Origin: a virus
Virus record (IMG/VR): IMGVR_UViG_3300040960_001766
Span: 1 to 39,266 of that record
Length of the DNA stretch: 39,266 bases
Strand: one strand, 5' to 3'
Part shown: piece by piece, positions 20,676 to 29,051 of the stretch
Numbering within the stretch: the first letter of the stretch is position 1
Layout of the letters: each line of letters begins with the position of its first letter
Program-made: the position numbers and the translations under genes
Notes under the pieces: model-generated
The model's input: the letters and a program-made list of their open reading frames with translations, nothing else
Told to the model about the DNA's origin: nothing
Databases searched by the model: none

Positions 20676-20681
20676 AAAAGA

Positions 20682-20705
20682 AAGCCCCGTTATTGGGGCT
20701 TTTTA
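20682..20705. terminator. Bidirectional terminator between portal and minus cassette 1
   Basis: AAGCCCC (20682-20688), 6-base loop, GGGGCTT (20695-20701), with TTTTT on the plus strand and, on the minus strand, CTTTTC after the stem. It ends the packaging operon and probably also the cassette that converges on it from the right. Confidence 0.82.
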
Positions 20706-20706
20706 G

Positions 20707-21759
20707 TTATGGTTTGTATGTTAAACCTTTTATTTCACCTTTAATGATTGCCTCTGCTAATCTATCGTAGGTTTTCCCGCTTTCAAGGAATTTTAAGATG
20801 GACTCGCTTAACTCTTCTTCTGGTGTTTTTGGTTTTTTAATCCATGAGCCAAAAACCATGGCAAAAATACCATCAGATTCATTTTTGATAGTTATGTAAT
20901 CAATGCCATCAAATGAGTATTTTGCAATTACTTTTGAAACCGCCCCTTTTATTGATTTAAATCTATTCGATGAACCATTATACAAAACCTCATCACCAAC
21001 TTGCGGCCAATCTTTGCTTTCAGCCTCTTCTTTGGTTTTACCAATAAAATCTGGCAGATTGCCAATGGGTGGCTTCCAATACTCACCACCGCAAAACTTA
21101 TAACCAATGTTTTCTAGTGTTTTAATCGCTGCATTCTTTTTGTTTGCATCGTAAACCATTTCTTCTAAGTTTGATTTAGACTCACCAGCAGATAAAAGGT
21201 TGTCGCCGTTGTTTGGTAGGTCATTAATAAAAACAGAAATAACCTTTTCATCATCGCTTTTAACTATTTGAACTACGCTGTTAGTGTTGTTAGTTACGTT
21301 TACTTTTACACCGTTGTTCTTTTCAGTCTGCTGCATTTCAAATTCCTCTTCTGGTGTTGCGGTTGGTGCTAGGGTTTTAGGTGGTAAAGGTATTGTGATT
21401 AGCTTTTCGCCGCTATCGCGTGCCGTGCTTTCCAAGGAGAACAAAAGCACATTAAGGTTGTCACAATCAGTAAAGAAACAAAAAAAAGCATCTTTATACC
21501 AAGTGTTGCAAACTCTTATCCCGTTAGCTTTCGCAAGCTTAGCAATAAACTCAGCATGCTCTTTACTCTCAATCTTGCCGTAGGTGTTAGCTAGGTATTC
21601 GCGAGTGATATTTTTGAATACTTCCTCGTTAATACAATTGCCATCATAAACACCCCTAAGTGCTGAGCTACTAGCTTCGATTACTGCACCTTTTGCTTGC
21701 CCGTAAAATAAAATCACCGCATTTGTTTTTAAGCTTTTGCCGATGTATGGAAATTTCAT
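20707..21759 (-). CDS. Cassette 1 protein, unknown function
   Basis: 350 residues. An alpha/beta N-terminal part to about 110 (KTNAVILFYGQAKGAVIEAS) is followed by a linker with TPEEEFEMQQTEKNNGVKV and, from about 250, a small SH3-like domain found in many phage proteins (WPQVGDEVLYNGSSNRFKSI, then GSWIKKPKTPEEEL). The C-terminus has ILKFLESGKTYDRLAEAIIK. No catalytic residues are evident. It is the last gene of a counter-transcribed block in the late region, so it is an accessory gene. Confidence 0.6.
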   Translation of the reverse strand: MKFPYIGKSLKTNAVILFYGQAKGAVIEASSSALRGVYDGNCINEEVFKNITREYLANTYGKIESKEHAEFIAKLAKANGIRVCNTWYKDAFFCFFTDCDNLNVLLFSLESTARDSGEKLITIPLPPKTLAPTATPEEEFEMQQTEKNNGVKVNVTNNTNSVVQIVKSDDEKVISVFINDLPNNGDNLLSAGESKSNLEEMVYDANKKNAAIKTLENIGYKFCGGEYWKPPIGNLPDFIGKTKEEAESKDWPQVGDEVLYNGSSNRFKSIKGAVSKVIAKYSFDGIDYITIKNESDGIFAMVFGSWIKKPKTPEEELSESILKFLESGKTYDRLAEAIIKGEIKGLTYKP

Positions 21760-22373
21760 TTTTCACCTCTATAAATTTTAATGTTTTTTGTATACCAATT
21801 CTCTTCTTCAAATATGGACAGTAGGCCAGACTTTGCCCTATCGTCGATAACCATCCCTAACTCAACCATCTTCTTGGCAACACCAAGCTTTTTAATTCTC
21901 CACATTTCGTGAGCATACTCTGGGTTATCGTAAGTGCCTATATGCTCAATCTTATTTGTAATTGGATTTTTAAAGTGAGACTCATACTTTCCATTCTTTA
22001 TCATATGAACACCAACAAATCCGCTATTGCTTGATCTTGGGTTTGTCCTTATAAAGCCGTTTACAGCTCTAGGTATAAAGCAACATTTCTCTGGGGAATA
22101 AACCTTGTTGCCAAAATCTATTAAATCCTTATCAAGCTCCATGCCATACCAATCCTTACCGCTCATCCAATCTTTAAACTGAGTGAAAAATTCCCACTCA
22201 TTGCAAACTGAATCCCCAATATAGGTAGGTTTACTATCCTGGTACTTTTTTGAGTAACATCTATTTATCATACTCCTCCATTTAATGTAATAAGGGCAAG
22301 CCCACCCAGAATTTCTATCCGTAACCTTGTAAGCGGCATCATTCACGCCAAAACCGTATCTACTCTTTCTCAT
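21756..22373 (-). CDS. HNH-like / AP2-domain protein
   Basis: 205 residues. The first 110 residues have the pattern of free-standing phage HNH-type proteins: WRSMINRCYSKKYQDSKPTY, VCNEWEFFTQFKDWM, then LDKDLIDFGNKVYSPEKCCF. Residues about 118-165 are an AP2-like DNA-binding unit (NSGFVGVHMIKNGKYESHF, then HIGTYDNPEYAHEMWRIKKL). Proteins of this form are often homing-type endonucleases, so it may be a mobile gene within the cassette. It overlaps the next gene as ATGA. The minus-strand promoter TGC-TATAAT lies about 20-30 bases upstream. Confidence 0.72.
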   Translation of the reverse strand: MRKSRYGFGVNDAAYKVTDRNSGWACPYYIKWRSMINRCYSKKYQDSKPTYIGDSVCNEWEFFTQFKDWMSGKDWYGMELDKDLIDFGNKVYSPEKCCFIPRAVNGFIRTNPRSSNSGFVGVHMIKNGKYESHFKNPITNKIEHIGTYDNPEYAHEMWRIKKLGVAKKMVELGMVIDDRAKSGLLSIFEEENWYTKNIKIYRGEK

Positions 22374-22395
22374 AGCAATCTCGCAAGCAAAATCC

Positions 22396-22404
22396 TATTA
22401 TAGC
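22396..22404 (-). promoter_or_regulatory. Minus-strand extended -10 before the HNH/AP2 gene
   Basis: On the minus strand ATGCTATAATAGG gives TGC followed by TATAAT, about 25 bases upstream of the ATG at 22373. The same TGCTATAAT occurs on the plus strand at 15036 and 24264. The stretch 22374-22438 holds nothing else. Confidence 0.5.
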
Positions 22405-22438
22405 ATACTTCCTATATTGTTATACTTACTCTTCATTT

Positions 22439-22918
22439 TTACTCTCCACTAACAAGCTCGGTTAAAGCCCAAGCTCTTCTAACTGTTAAAATATTATCAA
22501 TTTGTTCATTGCTGATTGAATCACCATTAGGCACAGCTAACCAGCACAAATTAGTAAGCGTGTTGCGCTCTCTAAAACTCTCTGCAAGAGCTTCGTGTGC
22601 TTCATTGAGGTAATCTACTAGCTGTGACTGCAAAAGCGGCTCAGTAAGCTTTACCTCTTCAACTTCAAAGCGTGACTTGCCATTACTTTCCACACCTACA
22701 GCGATTAGGTGAATATTCCATAGGTGGCGGATTTTTGACACTGCTTGCGCCATTGAATATCCAACATCAATACAGCGACCAGTTTTAAAATTCAACATAT
22801 GCGCCGTGTACTTTTCATTGTCATCAGTTTGACTATGAAATACCGCTAGATTTTTAAGGCCAGCCCTAGCACAAGCTAGAGCGCCTTTCATTTTGTTGTA
22901 CTTCTTCTTACGAGCCAT
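22439..22918 (-). CDS. Cassette 1 protein, unknown function
   Basis: 159 residues from ATG at 22918; earlier in-frame starts run through the end of the neighbouring gene and lack a ribosome binding site. The N-terminus is basic (MARKKKYNKMKGALACARAG), the middle alpha/beta, and the C-terminus helical (LLQSQLVDYLNEAHEALAES). No domain recognised. It overlaps the first gene of the cassette by 11 bases. Confidence 0.55.
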   Translation of the reverse strand: MARKKKYNKMKGALACARAGLKNLAVFHSQTDDNEKYTAHMLNFKTGRCIDVGYSMAQAVSKIRHLWNIHLIAVGVESNGKSRFEVEEVKLTEPLLQSQLVDYLNEAHEALAESFRERNTLTNLCWLAVPNGDSISNEQIDNILTVRRAWALTELVSGE

Positions 22919-23150
22919 ATTTATATCTCTTTGCGCTTGACTTTGCATAACCGAATTTATCACTAACAATCACACCGTTTTCACGAATAATAACGCGCTT
23001 CATCTTTCTGTTATGACAAGCGGCAAGGTTTCCAGGTGTCTTCATTGGATGACTTGGATCTTGCGCTGCGTTGTAACGCTTCATGTGCATAGTTGTTTGT
23101 GTGAATGATAAATCACTCATTGATTCTGGTGCGAATATGTTGTCTGTCAT
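22908..23150 (-). CDS. First gene of cassette 1, unknown function
   Basis: 80 residues, with GGAG upstream of the ATG. Starts MTDNIFAPESMSDLSFTQTT; contains AACHNRKMKRVIIRENG and a basic C-terminus. One His/Cys cluster (HMKRY, ACHNRK) is present but no known fold. A degenerate copy of the repeated late element lies about 75 bases upstream of its start. Confidence 0.5.
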   Translation of the reverse strand: MTDNIFAPESMSDLSFTQTTMHMKRYNAAQDPSHPMKTPGNLAACHNRKMKRVIIRENGVIVSDKFGYAKSSAKRYKYGS

Positions 23151-23217
23151 TTTATTTACTCCGTTTGTTTTGATAGGTGAATACTATTAGATTATTTTGC
23201 TGTGGTGAAATAACAAA

Positions 23218-23244
23218 TTGGAATATACATATAACTAATCGGTA
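23218..23244 (-). promoter_or_regulatory. Degenerate copy (E) of the repeated late element
   Basis: On the minus strand the block GATTAGTTATATG, then TATATT, matches the centre of copies A and B (TTAGTTATAT) but the left arm and the TATAAC end are changed. It precedes minus cassette 1, the position that copies C and D hold for the other cassettes. A TATATT -10 at the right spacing from TTAAAT could be the promoter. Confidence 0.3.
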
Positions 23245-23725
23245 TTTAACTTTTACACAGTTTGTGGTTAAGGTTTGCGCTGTTGGTTATGTGGTGTATA
23301 ATTTGTACTGCGGTGTGGAAGCCGTTAAAAGAAAAGTCGGTTGAGGATATTTACACATGCGATTCTAGGGGTTTTTATAACCGTCAAGTTTCGCCCCTCT
23401 TCCACCTAGAGGATCGCAGTTGTAAGTGTCCTTTTTGTGTCTGGTGGTTTGTCCGCCGAAAACGAGTAAGGTCGAAATTGGTAATATGACCGCCAGTCAC
23501 AACCCCTTCTAACACTCCCACAGATTAAGCATTCGGTACTTACCGCAAAACACCAACAATTTAAAATAACACTGGTTAGTGCGTCGACTTTTAGACCGAG
23601 GATAAAGCGAGTTAATGTTGATGTGATCACATAAGCCGAATTTAACAAATTCATATAGGCGTGATGTATCGGAGCGACAACTCTAAAAACTGTTTCGCAT
23701 ATTGAGTAGCTAACATAACAGTAAA

Positions 23726-23760
23726 AGACCTTATTTGTTTGATGTATCAACTAAAGGTCT
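23726..23760. other. Nested hairpin before the 147-residue membrane gene
   Basis: AGACCTT (23726-23732) pairs with AAGGTCT (23754-23760), and inside it TTGAT (23739-23743) pairs with ATCAA (23746-23750). On the minus strand it is followed by TTTTAC, so it might stop leftward read-through; on the plus strand no T-run follows. Confidence 0.5.
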
Positions 23761-23794
23761 AATGATAACTATTATTTAAATTTGGAGAGTAGAA

Positions 23795-24238
23795 ATGATT
23801 AAAGTATTTAACTTGGCAATGTTTGCAGCGCTAATAACTGGCGTTTACTATGATAATGAAGGACTGCTTGAGCTTTATTCAGCATACGCATTCTCATTGC
23901 TTGTACTAATTTCCATTGCTGGCGCTTATTGCGTCTACCTAGCTTTTGAATTTGATCAAGAAAGCGACAAGTCTTTTTACTTGAAAGATAAGCTTATAAC
24001 TAGTTTCAATGGCGAGATTACCACCTATCAAAAAATTGTGGTTATACCTGTGAGGGTTGCGTCTTTAGTCTTATTGGTTTTGTCTCAGCAGTATTTAGTG
24101 GCGGCTGCGCTTTTCTTATCAATTGTAATATTTCACAGAATCAATAAAGGCATGACTAGAAGGTTCAATCAAATGAGCGATTACATGACATCAAAATCAG
24201 ATTCTAAAGTTGTTATTGCTGATTTCGGTAAAAGCTAA
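23795..24238 (+). CDS. Membrane protein in the head gene cluster
   Basis: 147 residues with GGAGAG upstream. Hydrophobic segments at about 5-20 (FNLAMFAALITGVYY), 31-50 (YAFSLLVLISIAGAYCVYLA) and 83-113 (IVVIPVRVASLVLLVLSQQY, then LVAAALFLSIVIF). The ends are charged (FDQESDKSFYLKDKL; TRRFNQMSDYM). It looks like an inner-membrane accessory protein, for example superinfection exclusion, but that is inference from its location between portal and minor head genes. Confidence 0.5.
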   Translation: MIKVFNLAMFAALITGVYYDNEGLLELYSAYAFSLLVLISIAGAYCVYLAFEFDQESDKSFYLKDKLITSFNGEITTYQKIVVIPVRVASLVLLVLSQQYLVAAALFLSIVIFHRINKGMTRRFNQMSDYMTSKSDSKVVIADFGKS

Positions 24239-24244
24239 CCTTAA

Positions 24245-24300
24245 TTGCCCCAATTCCCCGCCATGCTATAATTGCCCTATATCAAATTAGGGCTTTTTTA
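24245..24300 (+). promoter_or_regulatory. Promoter nested in a terminator that also holds the ribosome binding site
   Basis: TTGCCC (24245-24250), 16-base spacer, TATAAT (24267-24272) preceded by TGC: an extended -10 promoter. The hairpin GCCCTA (24274-24279), 8-base loop, TAGGGC (24288-24293) and TTTTTT follows at once. AGGG in its right arm is 7 bases before the ATG at 24300. RNA started near 24279 would lack the left arm and leave AGGG free, while read-through RNA would form the terminator hairpin. Confidence 0.6.
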
Positions 24301-25403
24301 TGCAATCTCCAGAACTTTTCGCAGCATTAACAAACAGAAGTATATTAGACCAGCGCTTTGCCTCATCTCTAAACAAGCAAACAACCGAAGCACTCCAAGA
24401 GCTTGCTAAGTGGCTACGTGAGCGTATCAATCGAGAGGGTGCTACCATTGCCTCTAGAAAGCGATATCAAAAGCTTTTAGATGATGTTGAGACAAAGACA
24501 GCGCAAGTGTACGAAGATATCACAGCGCTTTACTATGAGCAGTTTAAAGCACTATCTGCTGACGAGGCTGAATTTATCACGCAAGCTATTCAGGCGTCCG
24601 TAGTCACTGATGTAATTGTTGAATCACCATCAAATAGAAAACTGTGGGCGGCAGTAACTAAAAATCCATTAGCCATTGGCGGTAATAACTCATTTGTTGA
24701 TTTTGACGAGATGATAGAGCGATTAGGCGATAACAGTCGCAAAGTTGCAAGCGTTATATCTGGCGGATTCTCTCAAGGCTTAACACTTCAAGAAATGACT
24801 CAAACCATCATCGGAACTAGAGCGCAAAAGTACACTGACGGAATTATTGATGCTTCAAGGCGAGAAGCTGAGTCAATTGTTAGAACTGCAGTAACTCACA
24901 TTGCTTCGACTTCACGCGATGAAATATTTAGACAGAATGACGACATCATATGGGGTTATACCATCTTGGCCACTTTAGATACTCGAACATCTGAAACGTG
25001 TCGGTATTTTGACGGTAAGACTTTTAAATACTCAGATAGCTACAATCCCAAACCAGCCTTTCATTATCGCTGTCGCAGTCAGATAACAGCAGAGTTTTAC
25101 AATGACAAACTAAACCGCACAGGTTCAACTCGTTCAGCTAACTTCGAAGATGAAACAGGGCAAGTTGACGCAACTAAGCAATATTATGACGTGCTGAAAA
25201 GACAACCTGCTTACGTGCAAGATGAGGTGCTTGGTAAATCACGAGGTTTGATATTCCGTAACGCAGGATTAAGCGCTCAAGAGTTCAGAGATGCTTTAGC
25301 CAACAGAATGGGTGAGCCTTTAACGCTCGCAGAAATGGCGCAGAAGAATAAGAAAATACTCGAGTACATGCGCAAGAATGAATTTTTAAAAGGTTATATC
25401 TGA
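24300..25403 (+). CDS. Minor head protein, SPP1 gp7-like
   Basis: 367 residues. The C-terminal half holds the head morphogenesis signature: SIVRTAVTHIASTSRDEIFR, then LDTRTSETCRYFDGKTF and FHYRCRSQI, with the CR..D and HYRCR pattern of SPP1 gp7 / Mu F. The N-terminal half is helical with a coil (LRERINREGATIASRKRYQK). Such proteins join the procapsid with portal and scaffold. The position between portal and scaffold fits. No Shine-Dalgarno sequence other than AGGG in the upstream hairpin. Confidence 0.85.
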   Translation: MQSPELFAALTNRSILDQRFASSLNKQTTEALQELAKWLRERINREGATIASRKRYQKLLDDVETKTAQVYEDITALYYEQFKALSADEAEFITQAIQASVVTDVIVESPSNRKLWAAVTKNPLAIGGNNSFVDFDEMIERLGDNSRKVASVISGGFSQGLTLQEMTQTIIGTRAQKYTDGIIDASRREAESIVRTAVTHIASTSRDEIFRQNDDIIWGYTILATLDTRTSETCRYFDGKTFKYSDSYNPKPAFHYRCRSQITAEFYNDKLNRTGSTRSANFEDETGQVDATKQYYDVLKRQPAYVQDEVLGKSRGLIFRNAGLSAQEFRDALANRMGEPLTLAEMAQKNKKILEYMRKNEFLKGYI

Positions 25404-27125: not shown

Positions 27126-27314
27126 ATGGCTACTAAAAAATCATACAGCAAGACTGATATTGTATTGACTGCAAAATGTGAACGAAAAGGTAAACAGGTT
27201 GAGTACAAGCTAACGCCTGTATCATTCAACACTGTAAACCTTAAAGATCTAAAGGTTACTGGTGAGCCTTACTATGTAGATAAAGCTGTTAGCCTTGGTG
27301 CAGTCAAAGGTTAA
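27126..27314 (+). CDS. Small protein after the capsid gene
   Basis: 62 residues, AAGGAG upstream. Starts MATKKSYSKTDIVLTAKCER and continues as a beta-rich domain (LTPVSFNTVNLKDLKVTGEP). Small beta proteins next to the capsid gene are often decoration or stop proteins, but no motif confirms this. Confidence 0.55.
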   Translation: MATKKSYSKTDIVLTAKCERKGKQVEYKLTPVSFNTVNLKDLKVTGEPYYVDKAVSLGAVKG

Positions 27315-27337: not shown

Positions 27338-27364
27338 AGCCTCACCTTTGAGTGGGGCTTTTTT
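27338..27364 (+). terminator. Terminator after the capsid genes
   Basis: AGCCTCAC (27338-27345), 6-base loop, GTGGGGCT (27352-27359) with one G-T pair, then TTTTT. The next gene's start codon region begins immediately after it. Some read-through must supply the downstream fibre genes unless a promoter was missed. Confidence 0.8.
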
Positions 27365-27377
27365 ATGCGAGGAAATT

Positions 27378-27488
27378 ATGAGGAATGATTTACTTAAACA
27401 AATTGTAGTTGCGGCTGGCGGCACTGTTACCGACCCAAACAACAGAAATGAACTATTAAAAGATTGGCTTGCAGCTTTAGGAGGTTGA
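27378..27488 (+). CDS. 36-residue protein, N-terminal relative of the fibre-like protein
   Basis: ATG at 27378, with AGGA upstream, encodes MRNDLLKQIVVAAGGTVTDP and ends NRNELLKDWLAALGG. The NELLKDWL segment resembles NELLADIL at the start of the next protein, whose gene begins 1 base after this stop. It may be a small head-anchoring peptide or an ancestral duplicate. Confidence 0.55.
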   Translation: MRNDLLKQIVVAAGGTVTDPNNRNELLKDWLAALGG

Positions 27489-28968: not shown

Positions 28969-29025
28969 AGCTATCTCCATTTGTTTAACTAACTCGAATA
29001 TAGACCATAATCATTTGAATGTTTA

Positions 29026-29051
29026 ATAACCTTTAGCTATAAGCTATAATC
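29026..29051 (+). promoter_or_regulatory. Repeated 26-bp late element, copy C (connector genes)
   Basis: ATAACCTTTAG, then CTATA, AGC and TATAATC. The spacer is one base shorter than in A, B and D, which turns the right half-site into TATAAT within GCTATAAT (29043-29050), a good -10 for the connector genes. It lies between the divergent minus cassette 2 and the plus connector genes. Confidence 0.65.

Follow-up and report, generated by a model that had tools for sequence, protein, structure and literature searches.

The promoter early stem-loops (PeSLs) of T4-like phages, the subject of Arbiol 2010 and Comeau 2014, are reportedly promoter-terminator cassettes in a gene-swapping region. Hairpin-nested late promoters are described, in the accessible parts of two reports, for gene e, soc and I-TevI of phage T4 and for mobE of Aeh1 (PMC2988022, PMC3014915). 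In the same parts, the T4 elements are gp55 late promoters (TATAAATA) and their hairpins are presented as translational blocks (PMC2988022, PMC3014915). Two other systems place comparable signals next to genes. Phage morons are defined, in the available text, as accessory genes with their own promoter and terminator (PMC1524935). The SAS/ESAS elements of cluster K mycobacteriophages lie at start codons and carry inverted repeats in their extended form; these repeats are imperfect, 17 bp long and of shared sequence, and lie upstream of the start-associated motif; the portion of the source available here describes no overlap of a -10 with a terminator (PMC3203893). Harden et al. 2020 (PMC6978322) suggest, in the accessible sections, that RNA polymerase retained at an intrinsic terminator could restart at a nearby sense promoter and so couple neighbouring genes, a possibility that they regard as needing further study.

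The element in the window

The window (i.e. the whole stretch of DNA analysed) comprises the 39,266 bases of a virus record whose closest named relatives are Pseudoalteromonas phages. An element of ~36 nt ahead of the minor head gene is probably a fused stop/start module of this marine bacterial virus. The features of the locus and its surroundings are as follows.

20679-20704, two-way: terminator 3' of the portal gene, at the other border of the cassette region
20707-24238, both strands: cassette region that separates the portal and head genes and varies between close relatives
23795-24238, plus strand: gene for 147 aa in the upstream cassette; its end lies 25 nt short of the -10
24245-24250, plus strand: -35-like TTGCCC (4/6 matches), from the promoter scan
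24264-24272, plus strand: extended -10 TGCTATAAT (TGC 24264-24266, TATAAT 24267-24272), from the sequence and the promoter scan
24274-24293, plus strand: terminator hairpin GCCCTA-N8-TAGGGC, from scan, fold and compensatory changes in relatives
24279, plus strand: predicted transcription start A, 7 nt past the -10, placed by the -10 spacing
24289-24292, plus strand: AGGG, Shine-Dalgarno (SD)-like, in the right arm, 7 nt before the ATG
24294-24299, plus strand: T6, terminator U tract and SD-AUG spacer
24300-25403, plus strand: head morphogenesis/minor head gene (phrog_241), its ATG directly abutting the end of the T tract

The hairpin comprises the arms GCCCTA (24274-24279) and TAGGGC (24288-24293), i.e. 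six pairs of which four are G-C, around a loop of 8 nt (TATCAAAT); in the scan it is followed by T6, and a single T separates it from the -10. The predicted promoter has 10/12 matches, a spacer of 16 and an extended TG. Its predicted start, A24279, is the final base of the left arm, and this arm doubles as the promoter discriminator. The ATG at 24300 is the start of the head gene, as protein alignment with phages BS5 and HS2 begins at Met1 and the annotated start of the BS5 gene is the same ATG. A preliminary description of this DNA had proposed a -10, a stem, AGGG and the ATG at 24300 in this arrangement, and all were found in the sequence where it had placed them. The promoter/hairpin overlap that it had pointed out proved to be conserved and to recur in other phages, and its geometry proved to matter, as examined below with shifted -10 controls.

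As described in the accessible text for T4 and mobE, the likeness lies in where the promoter is placed: longer RNA folds a hairpin over the ribosome site, and RNA from this promoter is missing the hairpin's 5' arm (PMC2988022, PMC3014915). Both T4-type features are present here: only 0-1 nt separates the -10 from the left arm in 20 loci, with the +1 predicted at the arm end, and the long RNA pairs the ribosome site in the predicted fold. The proposed hiding of the ribosome site in the window element matches the known arrangement of T4 gene e and I-TevI, as far as it is described in the text at hand. The window differs from T4 in having a sigma70-type extended -10 (TATAATTG) rather than TATAAATA, a hairpin in terminator form with a T tract, and a weak SD. 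The likeness to PeSLs, judged from sequence and from the part of their description available, is a short intergenic cassette that unites a sigma70-like promoter with a terminator. A scan of bases 1-50,000 of phage RB49 found 15 hairpins, three of which are followed by TTGACA within ~25 nt (i.e. stem-loop first and promoter after), and none of the 15 had the layout of -10, stem, T tract and ATG. One of them, at 46809 on the minus strand, carries TATAAT inside its loop. Compared with RB49, the order in the window is reversed and the bases are shared; moreover, the window holds a single copy of the element, whereas PeSLs occur in many copies per genome. As with morons, in the available account, the element borders an accessory cassette; unlike in that account, one set of bases in the window serves both as terminator of the cassette and as promoter of the phage gene that follows. 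A literature search recognised no account of this layout within its reach, beyond which lay most subscription papers and the PeSL originals. Because of the T4 and PeSL precedents, and as the scanned part of RB49 is without the layout, the mechanism is regarded as one of known type and the geometry as a variant.

Conservation and gene neighbourhood

Twenty loci of the head-gene family with upstream sequence were compared, i.e. the window, ten close IMG/VR relatives, L404/L041, L407, L410-L414, BS5 and HS2. The head proteins of BS5 and HS2 share 57-59% identity with that of the window, and L410-L414 are distant relatives (23-26% by tblastn; 24% for the two aligned). L409 was dropped, its match starting at residue 64 and without upstream sequence, and second copies of contigs already in the set (L396-L403, L405, L406 and L408) were counted once. 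All 20 loci carried TGNTATAAT or TGNTATACT, followed within 0-1 nt by a hairpin rich in G+C, then by a U-rich tract and an ATG. The element is kept from 97% down to 24% protein identity while the upstream gene is exchanged. In L005, BS5 and HS2, blastn homology to the window restarts at 24262-24264, i.e. at the start of the -10, and L005, L404, BS5 and HS2 agree with the window at no more than 7-8 of the 20 positions directly above the -10, so that a -35 is not conserved. Since the sequence above the -10 is not kept, the -35-like TTGCCC is probably dispensable and the unit appears to start at the extended -10. No prophage relative was found in the bacterial genomes searched with the head protein.

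Pairs 1-6 of the stem are intact in all nine distinct hairpins of the family, among them those of two Vibrio phages. At pair 4, eight of these have C-G and L414 has T-A, and pair 6 is A-T in seven and C-G in the two Vibrio phages. A family of endonucleases that also carries the layout (see below) has C-G at pair 5 in two and T-A in one of its three distinct forms. These compensatory events are few and each is a double change. Pairs were counted per arm by script because the MAFFT alignment puts one Vibrio row wrongly. The hairpin is conserved as a structure. Additionally, T occupies 5-7 of the first eight bases 3' of the stem in all ten variants counted, with an exact T6 in most. The T tract is interrupted in BS5, HS2, L407 and L009 while the stem is kept, and these interruptions count against the fused stop/start reading.

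The cassette region ahead of the element is variable. Its 147-aa gene, which had no PHROG match, is exchanged for other sequence in L002, L005, L008, L011, BS5 and HS2, and the element is the border between this swappable region (20707-24238) and the head gene. An HNH-type endonuclease lies on the minus strand within the region. Traces of exchange may also be seen in L051, where the same head gene is preceded by tandem copies of the element (2685-2716 and ~2890-2930) with an insert of ~200 bp between them. The left arm of the second copy is degenerate, and the arrangement looks like the result of an insertion or recombination event at the element.

What precedes the head gene was assessed for 23 regions from named phages (seven from the 25 listed of 946 records, 15 from 60 spread over 1,339 records, and one other). 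The head gene abuts or overlaps the preceding gene in 11 phages, and the element was absent from all 11. The neighbour is on the opposite strand in seven, all of which lacked the terminator; TGTATAAT is visible in three of this class (phiHSIC, V1.216 and V1.119). A co-directional gene with a gap is present in four, and two of these have the element. Vibrio phages 1.060.A and 1.291.O carry TGATAAAAT and TGATAAACT, respectively, fused to a GCCCTC hairpin and T6ATG, with the annotated head-gene starts 11 and 14 nt beyond the T tract. In the same class, K1H has a terminator and no recognised -10, and R9Y1 has neither. VPv64 is included in the total of 23 and stands outside the classes. This pattern agrees with a stop-and-start boundary, which is needed when a co-directional cassette lies ahead. 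Both K1H and R9Y1, and the annotated starts of the Vibrio phages, speak against the fused stop/start reading.

Three further observations were made in these sequences. The match to the head morphogenesis gene of Vibrio phage 1.197.A (L462, 1204-3276) is split in two, and the annotation of this gene includes an intein C-terminal splicing region. A second terminator in the window (27338-27363), after the gene at 27126-27314, has a T tract running into an ATG, no adjoining -10, and a better SD and ATG downstream at 27379. At 29023-29050, TTAATA-16-TATAAT lies ahead of a gene of the late region, and the gene upstream of it is encoded on the minus strand; this promoter without a terminator agrees with the absence of terminators in the opposite-strand class.

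Recurrence in viral DNA and controls

The combined pattern of the element occurred once in the window and in none of 100 dinucleotide shuffles. Promoter-like and terminator-like sites taken singly were at chance level in this half of the window (42 against 45.4 +/- 6.5 expected, and 19 against 16.4 +/- 4.2 expected, respectively), and this counts against the fused stop/start reading. As single-class sites are at chance level, the weight rests on the combination and its conservation.

A search for TATAATN0-3 GCCC N5-15 GGGC T6 ATG detected the exact layout in 25 IMG/VR contigs. The ATG opens a frame of at least 150 aa in 21 of the 25 and of at least 50 aa in 22, the short frames being those of L388 (48 aa), L051 (3 aa) and L088 (13 aa). 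The genes behind the layout encode phrog_241 head proteins of two subfamilies, phrog_3517 head morphogenesis proteins, a terminase large subunit (L056), phrog_760 (L079), a homing endonuclease family, presumably GIY-YIG by its motif and the family cited above for pair 5, and two other endonucleases. A GTG form of the layout adds the head-tail adaptor Ad1 (L391, with L035 and L068 by similar sequence). The 25 contigs represent only ~8 gene families, a small number that weighs against the fused stop/start reading. One copy of the element is present in the window, two each in G009 and G010, and none of the other 16 records searched has more than one. The second copy lies before the Ad1 gene with its GTG start in G010 (L391) and G009 (L035), i.e. 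at least two uses per phage.

Controls with altered geometry or an altered -10 were examined in IMG/VR. With TATAAT placed 10-13 nt upstream of the stem, a spacing from which the RNA would include the whole hairpin, seven contigs (four distinct sequences) were found and none of the seven opened 50 aa. Replacement of TATAAT by TAATAT gave three contigs, likewise none opening 50 aa. Hairpin-T6-ATG without a -10 requirement opened at least 50 aa in 20/102 among the matches listed (L242 counted twice). TATAAT is not enriched beside viral terminators in general, with no occurrence at 237 loci chosen without a -10 requirement in 2.07 Mb; the other 19 permutations of TATAAT gave 0-8 at the same loci. 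Among the matches listed, no TATAAT peak was observed beside the stem for either hairpin-T6-ATG or hairpin-T6-GTA. The lack of a general viral excess of TATAAT at terminators is a further point against the fused stop/start reading. A search of 84,980 species genomes for the exact ATG pattern gave 20 contigs, seven of which opened at least 50 aa.

The possibility that the layout is a theme of the Pseudoalteromonas host was rejected: 108 genomes hold 18 matches at 0-3 nt versus 29 at 10-13 nt, indicating that the layout is not a theme of these chromosomes. Chance co-occurrence was ruled out by the shuffles, the recurrence in 25 contigs, and the shifted -10 and TAATAT controls. There is no general TATAAT excess and the ATGs open genes; the layout is therefore rare yet gene-linked. 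Within the sequences searched, it is gene-linked in phages only at the spacing that would spare the new transcript. As other viruses share it, the layout looks selected and not accidental.

Proposed mechanism and alternatives

The fused stop/start reading is based on sequence, conservation, compensatory pairing, recurrence and the geometry controls. RNA polymerase arriving from the upstream cassette would transcribe the full hairpin and U6 and would terminate just before the ATG at 24300, and any readthrough RNA would carry AGGG in paired form. The preliminary description had called the promoter late; a consensus extended -10, however, could be used by host sigma70 RNA polymerase at any time. 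Such a sigma70-type polymerase would recognise the extended -10 and begin its transcript near A24279. The left arm would then act as discriminator and be left untranscribed from the inner promoter; because of this, the new RNA would be unable to form the hairpin and would not be terminated. The leader of the new mRNA would measure ~21 nt, AGGG lying 7 nt ahead of the AUG. In this scheme, promoter activity and the +1 are predictions, as are termination and translation, and the head gene would depend on the inner promoter, with a 36-nt stretch parting a swappable cassette from an essential gene.

Predicted folds suggest that cassette RNA would be terminated before the AUG and that the inner promoter would yield a hairpin-free mRNA. 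The hairpin alone has a predicted energy of -9.1 kcal/mol. In the fold of 24100-24400, AGGG is paired with an unpaired probability of at most 0.001, in line with the preliminary description's claim that RNA from upstream would hide the ribosome site. RNA from the predicted start at 24279 would lose 5/6 left-arm bases and its leader to the AUG has no predicted structure, which lends model support to the proposal that the promoter's own transcripts escape the hairpin. The accompanying claim, that AGGG is thereby free for translation, held for the predicted leader up to the AUG and only in part for the 122-nt fold of the own transcript (to 24400), in which GGG is still partly paired. AGGG is also a weak SD, as its pairing with the anti-SD is only -3.4 kcal/mol, tied 23rd among 27 genes picked by the analyst, and this weakness argues against the fused stop/start reading. 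The same right arm forms a better SD ahead of other genes (L018, -8.4; L056, -12.6).

An alternative with a known precedent in T4 gene e and I-TevI is that the main role of the hairpin is to cover the ribosome site of long transcripts, with little termination and with the U-rich run mainly a spacer. Stems that are kept beside the interrupted T tracts of BS5, HS2, L407 and L009 would suit this explanation, as would the purine core (AAGG in L414) that the right arm retains in altered sequences. It is nevertheless thought rather unlikely, given that T is found at 5-7 of the first eight bases in every variant counted and mostly as an exact T6, that the element sits where a co-directional cassette ends, and that the SD of the window is weak. 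It is improbable that promoter and terminator were merely pushed together by compaction and that their overlap is functionless. Phage intergenic regions are short and each signal is common alone, but the same overlap lies ahead of unrelated genes, genes are absent when the -10 sits at 10-13 nt, and the stem changes are compensatory. Hardly any likelihood is attached to the inverted repeat being a DNA operator, or merely a G+C-rich discriminator that tunes the promoter. Relative to the predicted start, the repeat would span about -5 to +15, where repressors typically bind, and the left arm is the discriminator; however, the arm changes are compensated and the loop length varies, which points to RNA pairing and not to a dimer site of fixed spacing, and a discriminator alone would not preserve the right arm or the U-rich tract.

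The fused stop/start module might, in a speculative and doubtful extension, also operate as a relay, in which polymerase would release the cassette RNA at the U tract, stay on the DNA, fall back ~20 bp to the overlapping promoter and restart in the same direction. This extension is drawn from the suggestion of Harden et al. and from the layout alone. If true, cassette transcription would activate the head gene rather than only being excluded from it, and phages would have evolved a compact layout for this repeatedly. With both signals on the same bases, the element is a natural test of that suggestion. The layout is also a searchable signature for promoters that are lost among chance hits in simple scans, and the element is a compact part for synthetic biology. 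For the phages themselves, it shows how accessory genes may come and go within a head operon while control of an essential gene is kept, within 36 nt.
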